In this document: in pieces, positions 2,379-18,549 of the stretch
Position numbering within the stretch: position 1 is the stretch's first letter
Layout of the letters: every line of letters starts with the position of its first letter
Assembly (NCBI GenBank): GCA_002320935.1
Contig: DCLG01000084.1
Location: 243,891 to 262,439 of the forward strand
DNA: 18,549 bases
Origin: Pedobacter sp. UBA1654
GTDB taxonomy: Bacteria; Bacteroidota; Bacteroidia; Sphingobacteriales; Sphingobacteriaceae
Direction: 5' to 3'
The notes under the pieces: model-generated
Seen by the model: the letters and a program-made list of their open reading frames with translations, nothing else
What the model was told of the DNA's origin: nothing
Databases searched by the model: none
Made by a program: the position numbers and the translations under genes

Positions 2379-4358
2379 ATGATTAAGAACTGCAGTAAAA
2401 AACTTCTGCTTTGGGTTGGCTTTTTGGCCGCAGGGTTAAGCCTGCAGGCACAGGAAAGTGCCAGTCCACAAACGGGTAAATACAATTCACATGAGGCTTT
2501 CCGTCCGATGTTTTACACCTCGAATGGTAATGAATATCGATCAGCAAGCGGCTATCCGGGACCAAAGTACTGGCAGAACCGTGCGGATTACAACATCACC
2601 GCTAATCTTGATGAGCAGGCACATACCATTTCCGGGACAGTAACCATTACCTATAAGAATAATAGTCCTGATCAGCTGCCATTCCTTTGGTTGCAATTGG
2701 ATCAGAACTTGTTTGCAAAGAACTCACGTGGCAATGCCGTAATCGCTAAAGGCAGTCGTTATGGTGCCCGTGGTGAACAGATAGACGGTGGGTATAAGAT
2801 CACCAACCTTGCCGTTTCGCAGAAGTCTAAAGCAGTAAAGTTCAACTCCCTGATTGAGGACACCAGAATGCAGATTCAGTTGGATCAGCCCATGGCAGCA
2901 AATGGGGATTTGATTACCATCAAAATGGACTATTCCTTCCCGATTCCGGTAAATGGATCGGATAGGTTGGGGCACCTGACCACCAAAAATGGTGAAATCT
3001 ACAGCATAGCGCAATGGTTTCCACGAATGAGCGTATATGACGATATACATGGATGGAATACCCTCCCGTACTGGGGTGCAGGTGAGTTTTATCTGGAATT
3101 CGGCGATATCACCTACTCCATCACTGCGGCGGCGAATCAGGTAGTTTTGGGATCAGGTGAGCTTTTAAACCCTCAGGAAGTATTCACCGCTGAAGAATTG
3201 AAGCGTTGGAATGCTGCGAAAAACAGCGATAAGACGGTGATCATCCGTTCTGAAGCTGATGTGTTAAACCCCGCTTCAAGACCATCGAAATCCAAACTAA
3301 CCTGGAAATACAGGATGAACAATACCAGGGACGCTGCCTGGGCTTCCTCAAAAGCATTTGTGGTTTCCGGTGCAAGGATCAACCTGCCAAGTGACAAGAA
3401 GTCTTTTGCGGTAGAAGCGCACCCGGTAGAGAGCAATACACCTGACGGTTATGCACGTGGTGCCGAATATGTGAAAGGCAGCATTGAGCACTATTCAGAA
3501 AAGTGGCTGGAGTATCCTTATCCAATGGCCATCAATATCGCTTCAAACATCAGTGGTATGGAATATCCAGGCATTGTGTTCTGCGGCTGGGAAGCGAAAG
3601 GTGAAGATGCATGGGGCGTTATCGACCATGAATTTGGACATACCTGGTTCCCGATGATTGTAGGTAGCAATGAGCGTAAATACGGCTGGATGGATGAAGG
3701 TTTCAATACATTTATCAACAACATCTCTAAAACCGTATTTAATAACGGTGAATTCAACAAAGGCCGGATGGATTATCAGGCGATTGGAAAATACCTGGCC
3801 AGACCTACAAATGAAATAGTTATGCTTGAACCGGATGCAATGCGCGAAGCGAATATCGGGATCAACCTTTATTACAAGCCGGCAATTGGTTTGGAGATCC
3901 TGCGCAAGCATGTACTGGGAGAGGCAAGATTCGACTACGCTTTCCGTAATTACATCAAGCACTGGGCATACAAACATCCTACACCAACTGATTTCTTCCG
4001 GTCTATGGAGAATGCAGCAGGTGAAGATCTGTCCTGGTTCTGGAGAGGCTGGTTTATGGAAGACTGGACCATGGATCAGGCTATTGCCAGCGTTAAGGAA
4101 GCTAAGAGTAATGCCGGACAACGTGAAGGATACGAGATTGTGGTGAACAACCTTGGCCGTTTACCGATGCCGATCCTCCTTGGTGTGGAAACTGCTAGCG
4201 GTAAAAAGGAATTGGTGAAAGTGCCCGTTGATGTCTGGATGCGCAACAGCAGCTGGACAGTACATTTCCCGACAACGGAAGAAGTAGTATCAGTTACCAT
4301 CGATCCGGATCATGAACTGCCGGATACTAATGCAGAGAACAACAGCTGGAAAAAATAA
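2379..4358 (+). CDS. Secreted M1-family zinc metallopeptidase
   Basis: The 659-residue protein has a signal peptide (residues 1 to about 24, ending LSLQAQ). It has the M1/gluzincin zinc site HEFGH at His417, Glu418 and His421, with the third ligand Glu440 in GWMDEGFN, which gives the HExxH-x18-E spacing of M1 aminopeptidases. The substrate-binding motif, usually GxMEN, appears as SGMEYPGIVF, with Tyr in place of Asn, a variant I associate with Bacteroidota M1 homologs. The N-terminal part (TANLDEQAHTISGTVTITYKN) is the typical M1 beta-saddle. It is likely periplasmic or surface-exposed and trims N-terminal residues from peptides; substrate preference is not visible. It is the second gene of the unit with the 1648 gene and is followed by a strong terminator. 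Complete, with no missing catalytic residue. Confidence 0.93.
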   Translation: MIKNCSKKLLLWVGFLAAGLSLQAQESASPQTGKYNSHEAFRPMFYTSNGNEYRSASGYPGPKYWQNRADYNITANLDEQAHTISGTVTITYKNNSPDQLPFLWLQLDQNLFAKNSRGNAVIAKGSRYGARGEQIDGGYKITNLAVSQKSKAVKFNSLIEDTRMQIQLDQPMAANGDLITIKMDYSFPIPVNGSDRLGHLTTKNGEIYSIAQWFPRMSVYDDIHGWNTLPYWGAGEFYLEFGDITYSITAAANQVVLGSGELLNPQEVFTAEELKRWNAAKNSDKTVIIRSEADVLNPASRPSKSKLTWKYRMNNTRDAAWASSKAFVVSGARINLPSDKKSFAVEAHPVESNTPDGYARGAEYVKGSIEHYSEKWLEYPYPMAINIASNISGMEYPGIVFCGWEAKGEDAWGVIDHEFGHTWFPMIVGSNERKYGWMDEGFNTFINNISKTVFNNGEFNKGRMDYQAIGKYLARPTNEIVMLEPDAMREANIGINLYYKPAIGLEILRKHVLGEARFDYAFRNYIKHWAYKHPTPTDFFRSMENAAGEDLSWFWRGWFMEDWTMDQAIASVKEAKSNAGQREGYEIVVNNLGRLPMPILLGVETASGKKELVKVPVDVWMRNSSWTVHFPTTEEVVSVTIDPDHELPDTNAENNSWKK

Positions 4359-4371
4359 GTTGACTACAATT

Positions 4372-4409
4372 AAAAAAGGGCTGCTATCTTAAAAATGGCA
4401 GCCCTTTTT
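4372..4409. terminator. Bidirectional intrinsic terminator
   Basis: GGGCTGC (4378-4384) pairs with GCAGCCC (4398-4404); weaker pairs extend inward. A run of A precedes the stem (4372-4377) and five T follow it (4405-4409), so it works as a stem plus U-run on both strands. It lies between the converging M1 peptidase gene (+) and hydrolase gene (-) and can end both transcripts. Confidence 0.85.
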
Positions 4410-4424
4410 GTATTTAGAGATTGT

Positions 4425-5267
4425 TTATTTCATAGTCACTTCCGCCAGGATCGGGAAGTGGTCTGATACGAACTTGCCGCGGTAAGTGTCTGTTAAAATA
4501 CCCCAGCGTGTTGCGCTGAAGTGTTTGGTTACGAAGATGTGATCAATTACACCGGTGCTTTCCAGTTGTTTACCCCAGCCATTGAAAGAGGCGTTATTTA
4601 CATACGGATTCTCTACCTGGTCATAGGTATCATAGAGAAAGCCGGAGTTTTTGAGGGTCAGATACCATTCACTCTGGTGATCACCGTTTAAGTCGCCGGT
4701 AAATACCGCCGGAGCGTTTCCTGCAATTTCCTTGATTTTCTTAATCATGAGCTTGCTGCTTTCTACCCGTGCAATTTTCCCCTGATGATCGAAATGTGCA
4801 TTGAAGAAAAAGAACTTCTTGCCGGTTTTCAGGTCCTGTAATTGAACCCAGCTTGCAATACGGTTACAGCAGGTTGCATCCCATCCAAGCCCGGGTTTGT
4901 CGGGCGTCTCGGATAACCAGAAATCACCCTTGTTCAATAACTTAAATTTGTCTTTCTTGTAAAAAATGGAAGAGTGTTCTCCGCCTGACTGCCCATCATC
5001 GCGGCCTGCACCATGATTTGCATATTCTGGTAAGTAAGTGCCAAGGTCATCAATCTGGTTTTTCTTGGCTTCCTGGGTTCCAAACACGTCGAACTGGTGG
5101 AAGCGCATGACGTTAGCTGCGAACTCCTTTCGTTGCGACCATAGATTCCCCGCGTCACCGCTGTTGTCATTTCTAACATTGAAGCTTCCAAAGATATAGG
5201 TCTGTGCATAAGCACCGCAGCTGATGCACACTAGCAGCGCTGCGGTTAAAAGGTTTTTTATTTTCAT
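4425..5267 (-). CDS. Secreted endonuclease/exonuclease/phosphatase (EEP) superfamily hydrolase
   Basis: The 280-residue protein has a signal peptide ending CGAYAQ (about residue 22). The EEP (DNase I-like) motifs appear in order: FNVR (Asn30), QEA (Glu66), NAHFDH (His158), GDLNGD (Asp192, Asn194), IDHIF (Asp242) and SDHFPI (Asp269, His270). The set is complete, so metal-dependent phosphoester hydrolysis is likely. In Bacteroidota such secreted EEP proteins often lie beside SusC/SusD genes, and their substrates (sugar phosphates, phospholipid head groups, nucleic acids) are mostly unassigned. An apparent SusD C-terminus lies just upstream on the same strand, and its stop is 26 bp before this start. 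The gene therefore seems to be the survivor of a former nutrient-uptake operon and may now depend on an upstream promoter. Confidence 0.9.
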   Translation of the reverse strand: MKIKNLLTAALLVCISCGAYAQTYIFGSFNVRNDNSGDAGNLWSQRKEFAANVMRFHQFDVFGTQEAKKNQIDDLGTYLPEYANHGAGRDDGQSGGEHSSIFYKKDKFKLLNKGDFWLSETPDKPGLGWDATCCNRIASWVQLQDLKTGKKFFFFNAHFDHQGKIARVESSKLMIKKIKEIAGNAPAVFTGDLNGDHQSEWYLTLKNSGFLYDTYDQVENPYVNNASFNGWGKQLESTGVIDHIFVTKHFSATRWGILTDTYRGKFVSDHFPILAEVTMK

Positions 5268-5293
5268 TTATAATTCAGGTTTGTGATTACATT

Positions 5294-5365
5294 TTACCAA
5301 CCGGGATTCTGACCAAGTTCCGGATTAAACAAGCGGTCGGTCTCCGGGATTGGATAAAGGTAGTT
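5294..5365 (-). pseudogene. Remnant of a SusD/RagB-family gene (last ~22 codons)
   Basis: Read on the minus strand, 5362 to 5294 encodes YLYPIPETDRLFNPELGQNPGW followed by TAA. The NPxLxQNPGW ending preceded by YPIP is the usual C-terminus of SusD-like nutrient-binding lipoproteins of Bacteroidota. An in-frame TAA at 5366-5368, two codons upstream of the first of these residues, means no longer protein can be made. Everything upstream of the tail (normally about 450-600 residues plus a SusC gene) is gone. The fragment ends 26 bp before the EEP hydrolase start, the place a SusD gene would occupy in an operon. It is too short for a database hit to be certain, but the match to the family ending is strong. 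Confidence 0.72.
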
Positions 5366-5377
5366 TTAGCTGATTGA

Positions 5378-5497
5378 CTAAGCTGTAAATTTTATGTTAC
5401 CGATGTACTTGAATACCAGTGCTGTTAACGTATACTTAACATAGCCTGAGCTGGATCCAGAGACATGATTCGCTTCCAGCTTCATTGTAGCAGCGTT
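5378..5497 (-). other. 39-codon open stretch after the VF530 stop, possible gene-tail fragment
   Basis: Minus-strand reading directly after the VF530 stop, in the same frame, gives NAATMKLEANHVSGSSSGY, then a hydrophobic/polar alternating stretch ending NIKFTA and TAG at 5378-5380. The composition looks like a beta-strand-rich C-terminus rather than random sequence. There is no convincing ribosome-binding or promoter signal for an independent small gene starting at the internal ATG. It could be the tail of another deleted gene, joined to the SusD remnant 9 bp further on, or a chance open frame. I recognise no family. With the SusD remnant it fills the 230-bp gap between the EEP and VF530 genes. 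Confidence 0.3.
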
Positions 5498-5719
5498 TTA
5501 ATGGAAAGTATTCAGATAAAGCTTCTCTACTTTCTTCCTTGCCCAGTCTGTTTTGCGTAAAAACTTGAGGCTGGAGCTCATTGTAGGGTTGTTCTTAAAG
5601 CAGTCTATCTTAACGTAAGTAGACAATTCCTCCCAACCATAGTGCCATACAAGCTGTTTTAGTATAAACTCGAGGGTTTTACCGTGCAGGGGATTGTTGA
5701 CTTGTTCTTTAATGGTCAT
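5498..5719 (-). CDS. VF530 family (DUF2132) small protein
   Basis: The 73-residue product matches the short VF530/DUF2132 family along its whole length. [41 protein letters not shown] and [10 protein letters not shown] are the conserved blocks as I know them. The family is described as DNA-binding on structural grounds (the Vibrio fischeri VF530 structure); its biological role is not established. It is small, basic and without membrane or signal segments, so probably cytoplasmic. It is divergent from the DUF2027-like gene with only 35 bp between the two start codons, and a TAATTTTG (-7-like) element sits 4 bp before its ATG. The stop is followed by the remnant-rich gap. Confidence 0.9.
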
Positions 5720-5723
5720 ACTA

Positions 5724-5731
5724 CAAAATTA
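5724..5731 (-). promoter_or_regulatory. -7 promoter element for the VF530 gene
   Basis: TAATTTTG on the minus strand matches the Bacteroidota -7 consensus TAnnTTTG exactly and ends 4 bases before the ATG at 5719. Transcription would start at or very near the start codon. No clear -33 TTG was found at the usual distance. Confidence 0.5.
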
Positions 5732-5742
5732 GGAAGATTAAG

Positions 5743-5750
5743 TAAATTTG
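5743..5750 (+). promoter_or_regulatory. -7 promoter element for the DUF2027-like gene
   Basis: TAAATTTG matches TAnnTTTG exactly and ends 4 bases before the ATG at 5755, mirroring the element on the other strand. It implies a leaderless or nearly leaderless mRNA. No clear -33 element is visible. Confidence 0.5.
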
Positions 5751-5754
5751 AGCT

Positions 5755-6390
5755 ATGCAAATAAACTTAGGCGATTTTGTCCGTTTTGTAGACGAAAACA
5801 TAGAAGGGTATGTAACCCGCATCATCGATAAAGACACTATTGGTGTTACGGATGCCAACGACTTTGAAATTCCGGTGCTCGCATCGAAGGTTACGCTGGT
5901 ACATGGCAGTATTCCTGATGATGATACCGTGGTCGGTAACCGCCCTGCTGCGGTGATTCCAACGGCAGAGTTTATTAAAGACGGAGTTTTTCTGGCACTT
6001 GTTAGTGATCAGCACAGCAACTCTGTGGCACATTTTCATGTTGTCAACGATACGTCCTACGACCTGCTGGTTGCTTTTACAACAGAAAGAAGCGAACACT
6101 TCAAAGGTGAGTTTGCAGGAATGGTAGGAGGTAAATCATCCAAGCGAATCTATTCCGCAAACATGACCGATATACAGATCTGGCCGAAGTTCCGGTTAGA
6201 AGCATTGTTTCACACTGCAGCGAACTTTGAACCGAAAGCAGCAATATCTTTCCATCAGCATCTAAAAGGGAAAGATCTTTCTGTTGCCAAACAGGAGATT
6301 CCATTGTTAAAAGCTAAAGGCTGGCTCATCCAGCTGGATCAAAAAGAAGAAGCTTTGGACCTGGATAAACTAAAGGCACGATTCAAATAG
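5755..6390 (+). CDS. DUF2027-like protein without a C-terminal Smr domain
   Basis: The N-terminus (INLGDFVRFVDENIEGYVTRI...DTIGVTDANDFEIPVL, residues 2-46) resembles the small beta-barrel start of DUF2027 proteins of Bacteroidota, which begin IGDxVRFL...G.V..I and DxDGFEIPVL. Residues 70-180 form a mixed beta region (GVFLALVSDQHSNSVAHFHVVND...). Many DUF2027 proteins I know run to about 340 residues and end in an Smr (MutS2-related) domain. This one stops at 211 after a Lys/Asp/Leu-rich tail (ALDLDKLKARFK), with no Smr motif. There is no signal peptide or membrane segment. The molecular role is unknown. It is divergent from VF530 and lies 36 bp before the histidine kinase. Confidence 0.65.
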   Translation: MQINLGDFVRFVDENIEGYVTRIIDKDTIGVTDANDFEIPVLASKVTLVHGSIPDDDTVVGNRPAAVIPTAEFIKDGVFLALVSDQHSNSVAHFHVVNDTSYDLLVAFTTERSEHFKGEFAGMVGGKSSKRIYSANMTDIQIWPKFRLEALFHTAANFEPKAAISFHQHLKGKDLSVAKQEIPLLKAKGWLIQLDQKEEALDLDKLKARFK

Positions 6391-11569: not shown

Positions 11570-11577
11570 TAGCTTTG
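11570..11577 (+). promoter_or_regulatory. -7 promoter element for the metal-efflux operon
   Basis: TAGCTTTG matches TAnnTTTG exactly and ends 9 bases before the ATG at 11587. It is the best promoter candidate for the HYC_CC_PP gene and possibly for the whole efflux operon. A -33 TTG is not evident, which would fit a need for an activator, but that is inference. Confidence 0.5.
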
Positions 11578-11586
11578 TGCTTAAGC

Positions 11587-11988
11587 ATGAAAAGGACACT
11601 ATTGATTTTACTTGCCTTTGTTTACCTTGGGTTCTCTCAAGGGCCAACGGTGTATCTTCATTATTGCATGGGAGAACTGGTCCAGATGGGACTGGAGCAT
11701 CCTGGCGAGTCTGGTGCTTGTTCGTTCTGTGGTATGAACAAAGAGGCTTCTGATCGGGAAGCTTGCTGTCAGGAAGACACCAAAAGCATAAAGGTTGATA
11801 ATGTCCAGAAGATTGTCAAAAGCGAGTTCCAATTCGAACAAGCGCCAGTACTGCTGCCCAGAACCCTCATCGAACAATTTCTCCAATCTACCCCCCAACA
11901 AGGAATACAAGCTGTCTTTTCTGAAAAAGAGCAGCCCCCACTACAGGATATTCCCGTTTTCATACGGAACTGTACCTATCGCATTTAG
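11587..11988 (+). CDS. HYC_CC_PP family protein
   Basis: The start is taken at 11587 because it gives a clean signal peptide (MKRTLLILLAFVYLGFSQG); an upstream in-frame TTG at 11575 lies in the promoter element. The 133-residue product has the three hallmarks the family is named for: HYC (His25-Tyr26-Cys27), CC (Cys60-Cys61) and PP (Pro117-Pro118). It also has a CSFCGM pair (Cys45, Cys48) and a C-terminal NCTYRI (Cys129). This small exported Bacteroidota family has no established function. Its Cys/His/Met content and its place directly before a CusA-type pump suggest a periplasmic copper or silver binding role. A gap of 161 bp separates it from the pump gene on the same strand. Confidence 0.85.
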   Translation: MKRTLLILLAFVYLGFSQGPTVYLHYCMGELVQMGLEHPGESGACSFCGMNKEASDREACCQEDTKSIKVDNVQKIVKSEFQFEQAPVLLPRTLIEQFLQSTPQQGIQAVFSEKEQPPLQDIPVFIRNCTYRI

Positions 11989-12149: not shown

Positions 12150-13445
12150 ATGGTACATAAAATTATTGAATGGTCCCTTCGTAACCGATGGATCGTGCTC
12201 CTCCTGGCAACAGGCTTGTTTATCTGGGGCATATTCGCGGTAAAGAAGAACCCTATTGATGCAATACCCGACCTTTCTGAAAATCAGGTGATCGTCTATA
12301 CAGAGTGGATGGGCAGATCGCCGCAACTTATCGAAGATCAGTTGACATATCCGCTGGTTACCAACTTACAAGGTCTTCCAAAGATCAAATACGTGCGTGG
12401 CTCCTCCATGTTCGGCATGAGTTTCATTTATGTGATCTTTGAAGATGACGTTGATGTATACTGGGCCAGGGAACGGGTGTTGGAACGTTTAAGCACCATC
12501 AGCAATACCTTACCTGGCGGAGCAAACCCACAACTCGGCCCTGATGGTACCGGCGTGGGGCATGTACTCTGGTATACCCTGGATGCGCCAAACCTGGATC
12601 TGGGCGAACAGCGCGCCATACAGGACTGGTATGTTAAATTCGCCCTGCAAAATGTACCTGGTGTAAGTGAAATTGCATCCTTCGGGGGCTTCCAGAAGCA
12701 GTACCAGATTGCTGTAGATCCCAATAAACTCCTTTACTATAAACTGTCGATCCCTGAAATCATCAGTGCCGTGCGCACCAATAACAATGAATCCGGGGGT
12801 AGGAAATTTGAAATGAGCGGTATTGGCTACATCATCAAAACCTCCGGATACCTCAAATCACTTGAGGAAATTTCGAATATTCCTGTGAAAAACCAAAATG
12901 GAACGGCCATTAAGGTCTCCGATGTCGCAACCGTGCAGATGACAGGTGAAACACGACTGGGCATCTTCGATCAGGACGGCGAAGGTGAACGCGTAGGTGG
13001 AATTGTAGTCATGCGCTATGGAGAAAATGCTGCCGAAGTGATCGACCGGGTGAAATCTAAGATGAAGGAGGTTTCTAAAGGTCTGCCGGAGGGTGTCAAG
13101 TTCGACATCGTATATGACCGTGGTGAACTGATCCAGGAATCGGTGGACTCAATCACAACGACCCTCATTGAAGAGATGATTGTAGTTTCGCTGGTGGTGA
13201 TCGTTTTTCTTTTTCATTGGAGAAGTGCAGTCAGCATCATCATCCAAATTCCCATTACCATCGCAACCAGCTTTATCCTGTTAAACGCATTTGACATATC
13301 ATCGAACATCATGTCGCTTACCGGAATCGCACTTGCCATTGGTGTCATTGTAGACAATGGTATTGTGATGAGTGAAAATGCCTACAAGCATCTTTCAGAA
13401 AAATATGAAAACTGGCAGGAACAACAAAATACGAAGCACTTATGA
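12150..13445 (+). CDS. CusA/CzcA-type heavy-metal RND pump, N-terminal half (TM1-TM4)
   Basis: The 431 residues match the first part of a heavy-metal RND pump. TM1 is at about 14-31, then NPIDAIPDLSENQVIVYTEW, the periplasmic porter region (about 40-340) and TM2-TM4 at about 343-408. Asp402 in VDNGIVMSEN corresponds to the proton-relay Asp405 of E. coli CusA. The frame ends at TGA 13443-13445 in the cytoplasmic TM4-TM5 loop, just after NWQEQQNTKHL, and the rest of the pump continues in another frame from an ATG at 13442 that overlaps this stop (ATGA). Family members are normally a single chain of about 1040-1070 residues; the two parts sum to 1076. So this is either a one-base frameshift or sequencing error, or a pump made as two polypeptides. 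Family call firm, split status unresolved. Confidence 0.88.
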   Translation: MVHKIIEWSLRNRWIVLLLATGLFIWGIFAVKKNPIDAIPDLSENQVIVYTEWMGRSPQLIEDQLTYPLVTNLQGLPKIKYVRGSSMFGMSFIYVIFEDDVDVYWARERVLERLSTISNTLPGGANPQLGPDGTGVGHVLWYTLDAPNLDLGEQRAIQDWYVKFALQNVPGVSEIASFGGFQKQYQIAVDPNKLLYYKLSIPEIISAVRTNNNESGGRKFEMSGIGYIIKTSGYLKSLEEISNIPVKNQNGTAIKVSDVATVQMTGETRLGIFDQDGEGERVGGIVVMRYGENAAEVIDRVKSKMKEVSKGLPEGVKFDIVYDRGELIQESVDSITTTLIEEMIVVSLVVIVFLFHWRSAVSIIIQIPITIATSFILLNAFDISSNIMSLTGIALAIGVIVDNGIVMSENAYKHLSEKYENWQEQQNTKHL

Positions 13446-15379
13446 GAAGCTGGTTTAAAAGAAAAGTGAACAGAGATGCAAACTGGATCTCTGAAGAAGA
13501 TAGACTTAAGGTCATCGAAAAATCCAGTAAGCAGGTGTCACGGGGCGTTTTTTTCGCAACAGTGATTATCATTACCTCATTTCTTCCGGTTTTTATGTTG
13601 ACCGGGCAGGAGGGTAAAATGTTCCATCCACTGGCATTTACCAAAACTTTCATCATGATTGTTGACGCTGTGCTGGTGCTAACACTTGCACCGGTGCTGA
13701 TATCATTTTTCATGAAAGGAAAGTTCAGGCCTGATCATGCGAACCCGGTAAACCGCTTTTTGGAACGCTATTATGAACCTGTAATCCGTGGCGTCTTGAA
13801 TTGGCGCAAAACAACCATTGCGGTCAATGTTATAGCCCTGCTGATTACCATTCCGCTGCTTAAAAATCTGGGTACGGAGTTTATGCCTGCTCTTGATGAG
13901 CAAAGCATCCTCTTTATGCCGGTTACCTTACCGGATGTTTCCAACAATGAGGCAAAACGCATCCTGCAGGTGCAGGACAAGATCATCAAGTCGGTGCCAG
14001 AAGTAGATAAGGTGCTCGGAAAAGCAGGACGTGCAAGTACAGCTACAGATAACTCCCCGATCAGTATGATTGAAACCATCATCATGCTTAAACCCAAATC
14101 GGAATGGCGGGAAGGACTTACTAAAAAGGACATCATCAATGAGCTTGATCACAAGTTACAGATTCCTGGTGTGGTAAACGGCTGGACACAACCCATCATA
14201 AACCGCATTAACATGCTTGCAACCGGCATCCGTACAGATGTGGGTGTAAAGATCTATGGACAGAATCTGGATACCATTGCCAAGGTTTCAGAGCGGGTAA
14301 AAAGGGCACTTGAAGGTACAAGCGGGGTTACGGACCTCTATGTTGATCCGATAACAGGTGGTAAATATCTGGCGATCGATGTAAAGCGTAATGAACTTGC
14401 CAGGTATGGCTTAACCGTTGATGATGTAAATCAGGTGGTGGAGTCTGCACTTGGTGGTGCTCCCGTTGGTAATACCATTGAAGGGCGGCAGCGGTTCTCC
14501 ATCAGCGTTCGGCTTGGTCAGGCTTTCAGAAGCAGTGTAGAAGGCATTAAGCGCATTCCATTAACATCTCCGAGCATGGGCGAGATTCCACTGTCTGCAG
14601 TTGCGGATGTTCGTTTTGAAGATGGACCACCAATGATCAACTCCGAAAATGCCATGTTACGCGGTGCCGTAATGTTCAATGTACGTGATCGCGATCTTGG
14701 CAGCACGGTTGAAGATGCAATTGCCAGGATCAATGAAAGCAGGGGGATCCTGCCTGAAGGCTACTTTCTGGAATGGAGTGGGCAGTATGAGAATCTCATA
14801 CGCGGGCAGAAAACATTAACCTGGATTGCGCCAATTGTCCTCCTGGTAATCTTTTTCTCCTTGTACTTCGCGTTCAATTCGCTTCGGGAGGCATTCCTCA
14901 GTCTTATTACGGTGCCTTTTGCACTTATTGGCGGTGTCTACCTCATTTACGTTTTCGACGTAAACCTGTCCATTGGCGTTGCAGTGGGCTTTATTGCCTT
15001 GTTCGGGATTGCGGTAGAGACCGGGATCGTCATGGTGATCTACCTGAATGATGCCATGCACCAGCTGGTGAAGTTGAAAGGTAATTCCAGCGCAACCATC
15101 ACCCGGGAAGACTTACGCGAATACGTGGTTAGAGGCGCAGCCAAGCGACTTCGACCTAAGCTAATGACCGTATGTGTATCCCTGTTTGGCTTGATCCCTG
15201 TACTTTGGGCGACCGGGGTAGGCAGTGATGTGATGCAGCCTATTGTGTTGCCGATGATTGGTGGCGTACTTACTTCTTCTACCCACATTCTGCTTGTTAC
15301 ACCCCTCATCTTTCTGATGAGCAAAGAATATGAATTGAAAAAATATGGAAAACTGGAGGTCAGTAATGCGAACCATTAA
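13442..15379 (+). CDS. CusA/CzcA-type heavy-metal RND pump, C-terminal half (TM5-TM12)
   Basis: The 645 residues continue the pump: TM5 (about 35-53, FFATVIIITSFLPVFML), TGQEGKMFHPLAFTKTF, TM6, TM7, the second periplasmic domain and TM8-TM12. The CusA methionine triad is present at matching spacing: Met159 (LFMPVTLP), Met209 (SMIETI) and Met258 (NMLATGI), separated by 50 and 49 residues as in E. coli Met573/623/672. The relay residues Glu526 (AVETGIV) and Lys573 (LRPKLMT) are also present. This points to Cu(I)/Ag(I) rather than Zn/Co/Cd transport. The frame is open upstream only to about 13406, so the junction with the first half lies within some 40 bases. It is translated from the overlapping ATG or by frame-shifting if the split is real. 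It overlaps the TolC-like gene by 14 bp. Confidence 0.9.
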   Translation: MRSWFKRKVNRDANWISEEDRLKVIEKSSKQVSRGVFFATVIIITSFLPVFMLTGQEGKMFHPLAFTKTFIMIVDAVLVLTLAPVLISFFMKGKFRPDHANPVNRFLERYYEPVIRGVLNWRKTTIAVNVIALLITIPLLKNLGTEFMPALDEQSILFMPVTLPDVSNNEAKRILQVQDKIIKSVPEVDKVLGKAGRASTATDNSPISMIETIIMLKPKSEWREGLTKKDIINELDHKLQIPGVVNGWTQPIINRINMLATGIRTDVGVKIYGQNLDTIAKVSERVKRALEGTSGVTDLYVDPITGGKYLAIDVKRNELARYGLTVDDVNQVVESALGGAPVGNTIEGRQRFSISVRLGQAFRSSVEGIKRIPLTSPSMGEIPLSAVADVRFEDGPPMINSENAMLRGAVMFNVRDRDLGSTVEDAIARINESRGILPEGYFLEWSGQYENLIRGQKTLTWIAPIVLLVIFFSLYFAFNSLREAFLSLITVPFALIGGVYLIYVFDVNLSIGVAVGFIALFGIAVETGIVMVIYLNDAMHQLVKLKGNSSATITREDLREYVVRGAAKRLRPKLMTVCVSLFGLIPVLWATGVGSDVMQPIVLPMIGGVLTSSTHILLVTPLIFLMSKEYELKKYGKLEVSNANH

Positions 15380-16613
15380 GATCATAGCCCTGCTGTGTGG
15401 CTTGCTGCCTTTGCAACTATGTGCACAGCAACATACAGTATCGCTGGATACCATTTTAAACAAGATCGATCTGAATAATCCGATGCTGCAGACCTATGCA
15501 CTGAAAGCAGAAAGTTATCGGCACAGGGCGGAAGCGGGCAGCGCCTGGATGGCCCCGATGGTCGGTGCCGGAACGTTCATGACACCCTATCCGGGGCAGC
15601 AGACTATGAGCGATAGTGACAAAGGATCTTTAATGTTACAGCTCGAACAGGAGATACCAAATCCTGCAAAACTCCGGGCACAAAAGGTGTTTGAAGCCTC
15701 CAAAGGCGATGTGGAACTCGCAGGGCGGGCAATTGTCTTAAATGAGCTGAAAGCACGTGCTAAAAACATTTATTACGGTTGGATCATCGCCAGTCAGCGT
15801 GTAAAAGTGCTGCAGGAGAATGAAAAGATTATGCAAATGATGCGCAAGATTGAGGAGATCCGGTATCCCTATAATCAATCTGCGTTATCCGGTGTATACC
15901 GCGCTGCTGCAAAGATTGAAGAGAATCAGAACATGATCCGCATGCAACATGGGGAAATTGCAAAAGCTAAAGCCTGGTTAAACAGCCTCATGAATTTACC
16001 AGCGAATCAACCGCTGGTCATTGACACCACCAGGCTCCCTGTTTTTACTGCAGAACTGAGCCTGGATACTGCAGTACTTGCGGGACAGCGCAAAGACATC
16101 CTGCAGATGGAGCAGAACATTCGTTCCATGCAGCTTGGTGTAAAAGCCATGCAGAGTCAGGCAAAGCCGGACTTCAAGTTGCGCGTAGACCACATGTCGC
16201 CGCTGGGCAGCATGATGCCGAAAGCCTACAGCGTGATGGGTATGATCAGCATTCCTGTAGCGCCCTGGTCTGCAAAAATGTACAAATCGGAAGTCAAGGC
16301 CATGAACTATGATATTCAGGCCATGGAAAAAGAACGTGTCGGCATGCTGCAGGAAAGCCAGGGGATGTTAACCGGCATGCAGTACGAAATCCAGTCTATG
16401 CAGAAGCGTATTGCTGCAATGGAAGAAAAGATCCTTCCCGCATTGAAGAAAACACTGGAGGCAGATTTCGTCAACTACCAGGAGAATAAGCTTGAAGTGA
16501 GGGCTGTCATCAACAGTTGGGAAGCACTTACGATGATGCAGGGGAATGTGCTGGATGAGAAAATGAAATTGTATACCATGATCGTTAATTATGAAAAAGA
16601 ACTGTATCGTTAA
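15366..16613 (+). CDS. Methionine-rich TolC family outer-membrane efflux protein
   Basis: The start at 15366 is preferred over an in-frame ATG at 15345 because it begins directly with a signal peptide (MRTIKIIALLCGLLPLQLCAQ). The 415-residue product has the helical-repeat pattern of TolC/CusC-type channels, e.g. LQLEQEIPNPAKLRAQK and PDFKLRVDHMSPLG, with long coiled segments near 120-200 and 300-370. It would form the outer-membrane duct of the tripartite pump. By hand count it holds about 33 methionines (about 8 percent), far above usual, in clusters such as EKIMQMMRK and SPLGSMMPKAYSVMGM, in keeping with Cu(I)/Ag(I) handling. It overlaps the pump gene by 14 bp and the first adaptor by 23 bp, so translation is likely coupled. 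Confidence 0.88.
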   Translation: MRTIKIIALLCGLLPLQLCAQQHTVSLDTILNKIDLNNPMLQTYALKAESYRHRAEAGSAWMAPMVGAGTFMTPYPGQQTMSDSDKGSLMLQLEQEIPNPAKLRAQKVFEASKGDVELAGRAIVLNELKARAKNIYYGWIIASQRVKVLQENEKIMQMMRKIEEIRYPYNQSALSGVYRAAAKIEENQNMIRMQHGEIAKAKAWLNSLMNLPANQPLVIDTTRLPVFTAELSLDTAVLAGQRKDILQMEQNIRSMQLGVKAMQSQAKPDFKLRVDHMSPLGSMMPKAYSVMGMISIPVAPWSAKMYKSEVKAMNYDIQAMEKERVGMLQESQGMLTGMQYEIQSMQKRIAAMEEKILPALKKTLEADFVNYQENKLEVRAVINSWEALTMMQGNVLDEKMKLYTMIVNYEKELYR

Positions 16614-17802
16614 GGTATTTTTCCTTCTGCTGCTTACTGCAACTGTGCTTGCCTGTAAGCAAAAAGCGCAGGAGCGCGGTATTGCCGCAAGCACTGAAAG
16701 GCCGGAGGGAACGCTTGGTGCGATTGTTAAGCCCGCCAATGAGCAGGTGCTTGCACGTACGCCGGTTATACAGGCTAAAAAAGGCTCCAGACTGTATGTA
16801 CAGGATGTGCAGGGCCGGATTACCTATGATTCCCGCAATCAGCGTGCACTCGCAAGCCGCGTATCCGGACGCATAGAAAAGCTTTACGTAAAATACAATT
16901 ATCAGCCAGTGAAAAAAGGACAGCTGATCATGGAGATCTATTCGCCTGACCTTGCCGCCGCCCAGCGTGAACTGCTGCTGATACAACAGCACGGAAATGA
17001 GTCGAATATGCTCGAACCAGCCAGGCGCAGGTTGATGCTGCTGGGCATGGATCCTCTGCAGATCAGCAAAGTGCTGCGTACCGGGCAGGTTGCTTATCGC
17101 ATTCCGGTATATAGCGCCGCAAATGGGTACATTTTAGAGCAAACGACTGCTGTGCAAGCGCCGCAACAAGCTGCAGCAGCTAGCTCTGGCAGTAATTCAG
17201 GTATGGCCGGTATGAATCCCGCATCCCCGGGTGCCACTACCGCAACAGTACCGGCCGCTCAACAAAATACACCGGTGCTATTGCGTGAAGGACAATATCT
17301 GAAAGCTGGTCAGCAGGTGTTTACCATTTATCAGACTGGCGATCTGCTTGCGGAATTCTCCCTGAACCCTCAGGTTGCTTCGCAAATAAATAAACAGGAG
17401 AAGGTGCTTATTAAACGTATTGCGGATGAATCAGAAACGATTTCAGGGAAGATCGGTATGATCCAACCGGTACTTAATGCAGGCGAAAACTTTGTCCTGG
17501 CCAGGGTCTATCTCCAAAAAAGTAACCTGAAACCCGGAGAACTGGTAACAGGTCAGTTTCCCTTTCTTGCGGAGAACAGCTACTGGCTTCCGCAGGCTGC
17601 GGTATTGTCATTAGGCAATGAAAGTGTTGTCTTTAAAAAGGAAGGAAAGGTATTCATGCCAACTAAAGTCAGAACAGGTGTGGTGCAAAACAGCGAAGTG
17701 CAGGTGCTTGACGAGATTGGCGAATGGCAGCTTGCCGGCAATGCACAGTATCTGGTTGATAGTGAAAGTTTCATTAAAACAGCAAAAATACAATCACCAT
17801 GA
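16591..17802 (+). CDS. RND efflux periplasmic adaptor, lipoprotein (CusB-like, first copy)
   Basis: The 403-residue protein has a lipoprotein signal with lipobox VLAC (Cys22). It has the membrane-fusion-protein layout: a first lipoyl half (ASRVSGRIEKLYVKYNYQPVKKGQLIM, then YSPDLAAAQRELLL), a helical hairpin, a second lipoyl half (VYSAANGYILEQ ... LREGQYLKAGQQVFTIYQTGDL), then beta-barrel and C-terminal domains. A low-complexity Ala/Gln/Ser/Thr/Pro loop at about 188-227, with GMAGMNP at 204-210, is inserted in the second lipoyl half; Met-containing loops there are common in Bacteroidota copper adaptors. There is no heavy-metal-binding domain, unlike the next gene. It probably links the pump to the TolC-like channel. 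The start overlaps the channel gene by 23 bp and the stop overlaps the next ATG by 4 bp (ATGA). Confidence 0.87.
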   Translation: MKKNCIVKVFFLLLLTATVLACKQKAQERGIAASTERPEGTLGAIVKPANEQVLARTPVIQAKKGSRLYVQDVQGRITYDSRNQRALASRVSGRIEKLYVKYNYQPVKKGQLIMEIYSPDLAAAQRELLLIQQHGNESNMLEPARRRLMLLGMDPLQISKVLRTGQVAYRIPVYSAANGYILEQTTAVQAPQQAAAASSGSNSGMAGMNPASPGATTATVPAAQQNTPVLLREGQYLKAGQQVFTIYQTGDLLAEFSLNPQVASQINKQEKVLIKRIADESETISGKIGMIQPVLNAGENFVLARVYLQKSNLKPGELVTGQFPFLAENSYWLPQAAVLSLGNESVVFKKEGKVFMPTKVRTGVVQNSEVQVLDEIGEWQLAGNAQYLVDSESFIKTAKIQSP

Positions 17803-18549
17803 AAACATTATATCTAATCCTCCTGCTGCCTTTATTTACACTGATGGGCTGTTCGGAAGAAAAAAGCACATCATCAGCAGCAAGCACGGTAAATGAAAAG
17901 ACCTATACCTGTCCGATGCACCCGCAGGTGCTGCAGCAGCAAATGGGTACTTGCCCGGTTTGTGGTATGGATCTGGTACTTTTTGATAAAAGTGGCGAAG
18001 ATGGGGGATTACAGCTTAATGAACGGCAGAAAACATTAGCCAATGTAAATACAATGACCATTGGAGGTAGTGGCACGGCGAGTGCTAAGCAGCTGAATGG
18101 CAGGCTTGTTTCCAATCCGGAACAAACTTCGTTTATCTCCAGCAGGGTGGCCGGGCGGCTGGACCGGCTGTTCATCCGTCAAACCGGAGAGCAGATAAAA
18201 AAGGGGCAGCCCTTATACCAGATCTACTCCGAACAACTCGCAACACTACAGCAGGAGTTCCTGTTGGCACTTGAGCAGTCCGCGCAATTTCCAGACGATA
18301 AAACCTTTGCGCAAATCCTAAGCGCTGCGAGACAAAAGCTTAGTTTATACGGACAATCAAACGGCCAGATCAAAGCATTGCAACAAAACCGGAAAGTTAG
18401 TCCGAACATCACCTTTTTTGCCACCGAAAGTGGAACAGTTGCAGAACTTTCCGTAGCCGAAGGTCAATATGTTGCCGAAGGAAGTCCGCTGTTGCGTTTA
18501 GAAGGTTATCAGTCGCTCTGGGTAGAAGCTGATATTTATGCTTCCGAAC
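17799..18549 (+). CDS. RND efflux periplasmic adaptor with heavy-metal-binding domain, 5' part (second copy)
   Basis: The frame starts at ATG 17799, overlapping the previous stop as ATGA, and is open to the end of the window (250 codons). It begins with a lipoprotein signal (MKTLYLILLLPLFTLMGC, Cys18). Next is a heavy-metal-binding domain of the CusB/CopA-associated type at residues 36-61: YTCPMHP, then GTCPVCGMDLV, with Cys38, Met40, His41, Cys52, Cys55 and Met57. The adaptor core follows with the first lipoyl half (SSRVAGRLDRLFIRQTGEQIKKGQPLYQIYSEQLATLQQEF), a helical hairpin and the second lipoyl half (ESGTVAELSVAEGQYVAEGSPLLRLEGYQSLWVEADIYASE). The rest is outside the window. The domain probably captures Cu(I)/Ag(I) in the periplasm and feeds the pump. 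It is the second adaptor in the operon and differs clearly from the first. Confidence 0.9.
   Translation, partial: MKTLYLILLLPLFTLMGCSEEKSTSSAASTVNEKTYTCPMHPQVLQQQMGTCPVCGMDLVLFDKSGEDGGLQLNERQKTLANVNTMTIGGSGTASAKQLNGRLVSNPEQTSFISSRVAGRLDRLFIRQTGEQIKKGQPLYQIYSEQLATLQQEFLLALEQSAQFPDDKTFAQILSAARQKLSLYGQSNGQIKALQQNRKVSPNITFFATESGTVAELSVAEGQYVAEGSPLLRLEGYQSLWVEADIYASE

Follow-up and report, generated by a model that had tools for sequence, protein, structure and literature searches.

A probable copper and silver pump of the CusA (RND) type in Bacteroidota, encoded in two halves and divided in the TM4-TM5 loop

Is a cusA gene that stops just after the fourth transmembrane helix and resumes in another frame a damaged gene, or does it encode a pump made in two pieces? 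The question is raised by an 18,549-nucleotide stretch of Pedobacter sp. UBA1654 (assembly GCA_002320935.1, contig DCLG01000084.1, positions 243,891 to 262,439), referred to here as the window. A sequence-only reading of this DNA had preferred the loss of one base, whether real or an error of sequencing, and had offered a true two-polypeptide pump, broken in a tolerant loop, as the alternative. We consider it highly probable that the locus specifies an RND pump of the CusA type, for Cu(I) and Ag(I), that underwent an ancient fission in the TM4-TM5 loop, its two chains assembling as heterodimer protomers. The features on which the argument draws are the following.

11575..11988, + strand: small protein of the HYC_CC_PP family, upstream of the operon (NF047658)
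12150..13445, + strand: CusA N-half, 431 aa, with TM1, the first periplasmic part and TM2-TM4 (matches to TIGR00914 and E. coli CusA)
13386..13442, + strand: C-terminal tail of the N-half past TM4, residues 413-431 (as in split N-halves)
13442..13445, + strand: ATGA stop-start overlap between the N-half and C-half genes (ORF coordinates)
13442..13510, + strand: basic N-terminal head of the C-half, 23 residues, lacking in one-chain kin (head comparison)
13442..15379, + strand: CusA C-half, 645 aa, with TM5-TM12 and the second periplasmic part (matches to TIGR00914 and CusA)
15345..16613, + strand, start codon provisional: CusC-like outer membrane factor (OMF), TolC family (PF02321)
16591..17802, + strand: CusB-like periplasmic adaptor (PF16576, PF16572; NCBIfam adaptor models including CusB match below their cut-offs)
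17799..18548, + strand, open-ended, running off the window: second adaptor with a heavy-metal-binding domain (PF16576, PF19335)

The break in the cusA reading frame is confirmed. ORF1 ends at the TGA of 13443-13445 and ORF2 begins at the ATG of 13442, in the -1 frame relative to ORF1, exactly as the sequence-only reading had described the junction; that reading had the second frame open from about 13406, and while the short overlap stands, a stop at 13406-13408 moves the opening to 13409. Alignment to E. coli CusA places the break at CusA residues 425-430 or thereabouts, between TM4 and TM5, in the cytoplasmic loop where that reading had put it. The claim that every later junction in the operon overlaps also holds, as the frame of the OMF overlaps ORF2, the OMF ends at 16613 with the adaptor beginning at 16591, and the adaptor ends at 17802 with the second adaptor beginning at 17799. 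Against the 1051 positions of TIGR00914, the N-half matches 1-431 with 455 bits and the C-half 427-1036 with 633 bits; each alone lies below the cut-off of 701 bits, and the two together supply the whole-model match. Since the family is defined by a single chain with 12 TM helices and the window has two ORFs, we regard the pump as a two-chain variant of the CusA/CzcA family and not as a standard TIGR00914 member.

In E. coli, CusA is a single chain of about 1047 residues, and its operon includes CusB and CusC. The window pump resembles this protein (HME-RND, TIGR00914; PDB 3k07, 3ne5, 7kf5) over its whole length and shares its Cu(I) methionine triad, Glu625 and the relay D405/E939/K984, differing in that one chain is replaced by two, of 431 and 645 aa. 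By alignment, Met159, Met209 and Met258 of ORF2 correspond to M573, M623 and M672, Glu526 to E939 and Lys573 to K984, and Asp402 of ORF1 to D405 (the chain numbering of E. coli CusA runs 7 ahead of the CusA numbers), which bears out the statement that these functional residues are kept; Glu211 of ORF2, accompanying the triad, corresponds to Glu625. Of the four methionine pairs of CusA, three (M403-M486, M410-M501 and M271-M755) do not survive as pairs in the window. The N-half carries the proton-relay Asp402 together with the TM4 methionines 388 and 407. The cryo-EM study of CusA, in its passages on the relay, locates D405, M391, M403 and M410 on TM4, regards this helix as likely critical in coupling the import of protons to the export of metal, and has the relay require residues of both halves (PMC8092243). 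As the chain break follows closely on TM4, both the relay D405-E939-K984 and the M391-M1009 pair would become contacts between two chains.

Conservation of these residues extends across the relatives. Among non-identical rows matched over more than 550 (C-half) or 370 (N-half) query residues, all 118 split C-halves have the Met159/209/258 triad with Glu211, and all have Glu526 and Met598, while Lys573 is present in 114 and lacking in four; Asp402 is found in 113 of 113 split N-halves, and Met388 and Met407 in 112 each. Copper and silver pump function thus looks retained in the split members. One could suppose instead that the halves have parted in function, working alone or with other partners, and that one-chain paralogues do the pumping. 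Such paralogues are at hand, in that a whole-genome search of five genomes found in every one a split pair and several one-chain CusA/CzcA-type relatives (a coexistence which also argues that reading frames are not generally broken in those assemblies), but all 26 one-chain paralogues examined, from seven genomes with a split pump, are without the methionine triad. The residues of the relay, which draws on both halves, are kept, and the halves remain in one operon and appear to have been re-fused twice, so we judge a separation of function very improbable.

Whether the two frames might be joined during translation is best judged from the junctions of relatives. We took as the start of each C-half the ATG nearest the conserved part, so that start codons are inferred and some heads are shortened by the rule (L051, for one, has a further ATG upstream, at -4, from which its head would be basic). 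A start was assigned in 116 C-halves, and four of these have no reachable N-half: L064 at a contig edge, L123 and L167 in the two reversed operons, and L154, whose N-half is itself in two frames. The remaining 112 junctions range from a 14-base overlap to a 686-base gap and comprise 55 overlaps, 48 spacings of 0-12 bases, 5 of 13-100 and 4 of more than 100; the 4-base overlap of the ATGA type is the commonest (36/112). The halves stand in the -1 register of the window in 73 cases, in another phase in 31 and in the third in 8. In Chitinophaga japonensis (L009) the 686-base gap holds a methyltransferase gene (PF08241). In two genomes (G213 and G197; loci L183 and L184) the order is reversed, reading C-half, OMF, two adaptors, N-half; there, neither frameshifting nor read-through can yield one chain, and two polypeptides are made.

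A -1 programmed frameshift in the overlap, giving one full-length pump and possibly a short N-half beside it, would suit the register of the window and of those junctions that share it. The sequence-only reading had doubted this for want of a slippery heptamer in frame, and indeed none of the form XXXYYYZ occurs in 13380-13445. The doubt is deepened by the relatives, in which neither a fixed frame relation nor adjacency is kept: the junctions fall in all three phases, and gaps of 94-686 bases and the reversed order exclude frameshifting where they occur. The inserted gene, the long gaps and the reversed order leave frameshifting unable to explain the clade, for which we reject it, and in the window itself we think it very improbable.

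The split is a stable arrangement common to many related soil and water bacteria, and it is neither an error nor a null mutation. When ORF2 was scanned against GTDB species genomes and the best 80 of at least 579 relatives were retained, the N-half and C-half lay in separate ORFs in all 78 loci having both regions, and none of the 78 was one-chain; in the remaining two the contig starts just before the C-half. The same division in every relative that could be checked means that the split in the window is not a matter of chance. One of the 80 loci comes from a metagenome bin labelled Williamsia, the other 79 being Bacteroidota by name. The C-half homologues come from many assemblies, and among the best 120 a length of exactly 645 aa is shared by 117, in a search for which one-chain pumps were eligible by size; the best 120 N-half homologues all measure 415-445 aa, 90 of them 432 aa, in a search unable to return one-chain pumps. 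C-halves 60-80% identical occur on complete plasmids (12 records, all Bacteroidota by name). On three of the four plasmids inspected RefSeq annotates the halves as two separate permease genes; on the fourth, from Spirosoma linguale, no gene is annotated over either half, and both frames are open.

The order of the operon is kept as well. Of the five genes tested, it is the OMF gene that follows the C-half in 79 of the 81 loci that include the window, the contig ending first in the other two, and the order N-half, C-half, OEP, MFP is found in 75 of the 81, the other 6 being cut by contig ends. A HYC_CC_PP protein occupies the same place in 45 of these 81 loci, window included, and the second adaptor lies downstream in related plasmids too. 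Relative to three relatives, dN is 0.08-0.13, a figure given for dN only since silent sites are saturated. Some copies carry further breaks: the N-half of L154 is in two frames, the C-half of L158 is broken, and in G548 one stop falls within the match.

A one-base deletion, real or artefactual, that broke a single cusA in this strain only would account for frames overlapping by a mere 12 codons or so, and the phylum sample described below has more one-chain forms than split ones (71 genomes against 18), but with 78 of 78 relatives split (among the best 80), at junctions that bear spacers, an inserted gene and reversed order, and with C-halves so uniform in length, we give this account practically no credence. 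The sequence-only reading had allowed for an error or a null mutation should close relatives have an intact frame; the aligned relatives have the split frame instead, and it is the two-polypeptide alternative that the 78 loci and the reversed gene order strongly support.

Censuses with ORF2 as the query show how far the arrangement extends; each scored 4 or 5 candidates per genome (up to 8 for the order of G012), so that all counts are lower bounds, the sampled groups overlap, and the criterion was frame length, the N-half being sought in fetched loci only. At E<=1e-150 there were matches in at least 89 of the 296 genomes sampled from the phylum: in at least 18 of these, 23 places have frames 643-728 aa long that are 53-85% identical, and the other 75 places, in at least 71 genomes, all have at most 54% identity and frames of at least 913 aa. 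Within the order of Pedobacter (E<=1e-190) at least 83 of 250 genomes matched, with 89 places, of which 86 are split-sized (632-735 aa), 2 one-chain and 1 broken; the order of G012 gave at least 21 of 149 genomes, with 22 of 23 places split-sized and 1 one-chain, and the order of Flavobacterium at least 10 of 246, every place being split-sized. The genomes G258, G151, G266, G443, G468, G609, G619 and G664 each have two or three split operons. We also considered whether Bacteroidota have no Cu-type CusA other than the split form, and had to reject this. When 20 of the 75 one-chain places from the phylum (40-52% identity) were sampled, all 20 had the methionine triad; 6 of them have another residue for the relay lysine and 1 for the glutamate. 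The portion of a paper on copper in Bizionia that concerns its pump describes one that bears the triad and is seemingly a single chain (PMC11213822). The split form is therefore one lineage of Cu-type CusA.

That lineage appears to have a simple history. For the C-half tree, 160 different rows were reduced to 82 by leaving out any that shared at least 88% with a row already kept; 21 names (the one-chain L109, paralogues, and a second, partial copy in L053) were then removed and six loci restored, which gave 67 rows. Twelve one-chain Bacteroidota kin (L129-L140) are 52-54% identical to the window pump and share its triad and relay residues; they differ in having one chain of about 1049 aa with no added head. 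Four of them were used in the trees as the sister group, and these, L129, L130, L133 and L139, are sister to a group of 56 rows, of which 53 are split. The one-chain members found within the split clade are L144, L156 and L157, with L156 and L157 together and L144 apart, each position on strong branches; they are 69-70% identical to ORF2 and differ from the split pumps in being one chain, 1052-1067 aa between stops, with the head lost. Supported branches force at least three changes, and a quick N-half tree (64 regions) needs three as well, which indicates that the halves share the main lines of one history. Most simply, there would have been one fission in the Cu/Ag CusA of Bacteroidota followed by two independent re-fusions. 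That the split arose only once is moderately supported, the node uniting all split rows having values of 95/53 in the C-half tree and 94 in the N-half tree.

The split members have a longer loop region, and their C-halves have gained a mostly basic head. The TM4-TM5 loop measures 17 aa in the 12 intact sisters, 16, 16 and 19 aa in the re-fused three (L144 having 19), and 14-24 aa in 21 paralogues, five paralogues having been skipped for a gap at the reference column and one C-half for having no ATG. The split pumps have instead a tail with a median of 18 aa (113 N-halves) and a head with a median of 22 aa (116 C-halves). The net charge of the first 12 head residues is at least +1 in 111 of 116 and at least +3 in 86; over the whole head the sum is lowered by an acidic second part, and 95 are net positive, 14 neutral and 7 negative. 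By the positive-inside rule, basic residues favour the cytoplasmic side. We suspect on this ground that the basic head probably holds the new N-terminus of the C-half in the cytoplasm (N-in), although 5 of the 116 heads are not positive even in their first 12 residues, and a role in topology may not be general.

Taken together, the observations suggest the following picture of a pump in two chains. The permease gene would have been split anciently in the TM4-TM5 cytoplasmic loop, and two polypeptides would be made, in the window most likely by stop-start coupled translation at the ATGA, a mode suggested by the spacing there and by the overlap of the later junctions. The N-half and C-half would insert separately into the membrane, the basic head probably setting the N-in topology of the C-half, and each protomer would most likely be a heterodimer of the two. 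Three such protomers, as in CusA, would form a trimer of heterodimers and work with the CusB-like and CusC-like proteins encoded next to them. For the halves taken singly, AlphaFold models (mean pLDDT 53.5 and 65.2) were too poor to use. Since the separation lies behind the coupling helix TM4, halves could mix in genomes with two or three split operons, and we mention as an outside chance that halves from different operons form hybrid protomers, or that the limiting half sets the number of pumps, which would make this a modular RND pump.

Transporters of the RND fold made in more than one piece have precedents of other kinds. SecD and SecF are two chains, fused as SecDF in some bacteria, and they divide between the two internal repeats, after TM6; the cut in split CusA differs in falling inside the first repeat, between TM4 and TM5. 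MdtB and MdtC are two full-length permeases, where split CusA has two pieces of one. The MdtBC heterotrimer, as outlined in one account, is an RND pump from two different gene products (PMC8277102). A related transporter is said in part of the NPC1 paper (eLife 2018; PMC6062155) to work from two fragments; there, unlike in split CusA, the cut frees the lumenal domain. We found no description of a split CusA, or of any other split HME-RND permease, in the open-access literature, and the relevant portions of PMC9283347 and PMC6062155 hold nothing that bears on one; the kind of pump is known, and the two-chain build is a variant for which that literature yielded no account. The 2024 survey of HME pumps, by the thresholds given in its methods, required 852 aa and more than 80% alignment, its length step removing 6 sequences (PMC10872679), and split halves would be left out by such thresholds.

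Annotation is one place where the finding matters. Neither half reaches the cut-off of the CusA/CzcA model, and the names in use suggest two pumps: one annotation source lists N-halves as CzcA family pumps and C-halves as CusA/SilA, and entries under the two names (e.g., P0134 and P0020) apparently share contigs, to judge by the matching lengths of these. In a larger context, RND pumps have been treated as one-chain protomers, and here a lineage of Cu/Ag pumps is, by the signs in its sequences, seemingly two-chain. The cut comes immediately after the helix that is held to link proton flow with the export of metal, and it appears to have been undone twice in evolution. The one-chain, split and re-fused sets may therefore serve as natural material for asking what role the continuity of TM4 and TM5 plays in coupling, folding and topology.

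In several of the split CusA relatives, the N-half (TM1-TM4) and the C-half (TM5-TM12) of the pump are physically parted, by a methyltransferase gene in Chitinophaga japonensis (locus L009) and by spacers of approximately 94-307 bases, with no long ORF, in the related loci L018, L036 and L065, the last of these spacers consisting of a short tandem repeat. The intervening segments are:

L009 5319-5978, methyltransferase gene (PF08241)
L018 5690-6000, inter-half spacer
L036 5767-6000, inter-half spacer
L065 1798-1900, inter-half spacer

In two further loci (L183 and L184) the gene order is permuted, running from the C-half through the outer membrane factor and two adaptors to the N-half at the end.

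One sub-branch of split pumps (L154, L155, L162 and L163 [3950-5911]) has the proton-relay lysine, Lys573, replaced by Leu or Ile but retains the methionine triad (Met159/209/258). Extra breaks occur in the N-half of L154 and the C-half of L158, and a single stop lies within the match in genome G548 (L159); these may reflect decay or assembly error. On the Spirosoma linguale plasmid pSLIN01 (L211 4461-7934) both halves are open, yet the annotation lists no gene there, and the split may therefore have been taken for a pseudogene.

Many one-chain paralogues (L081, L083, L084, L086 and others) have frames of about 1450-1480 amino acids, exceeding permease length by some 400 amino acids, and are possibly fusions with another pump component. 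Within the split clade itself, three one-chain pumps (L144, L156 and L157) have short loops and lack the basic head, the N-terminal extension of split C-halves; these pumps are natural re-fusions.
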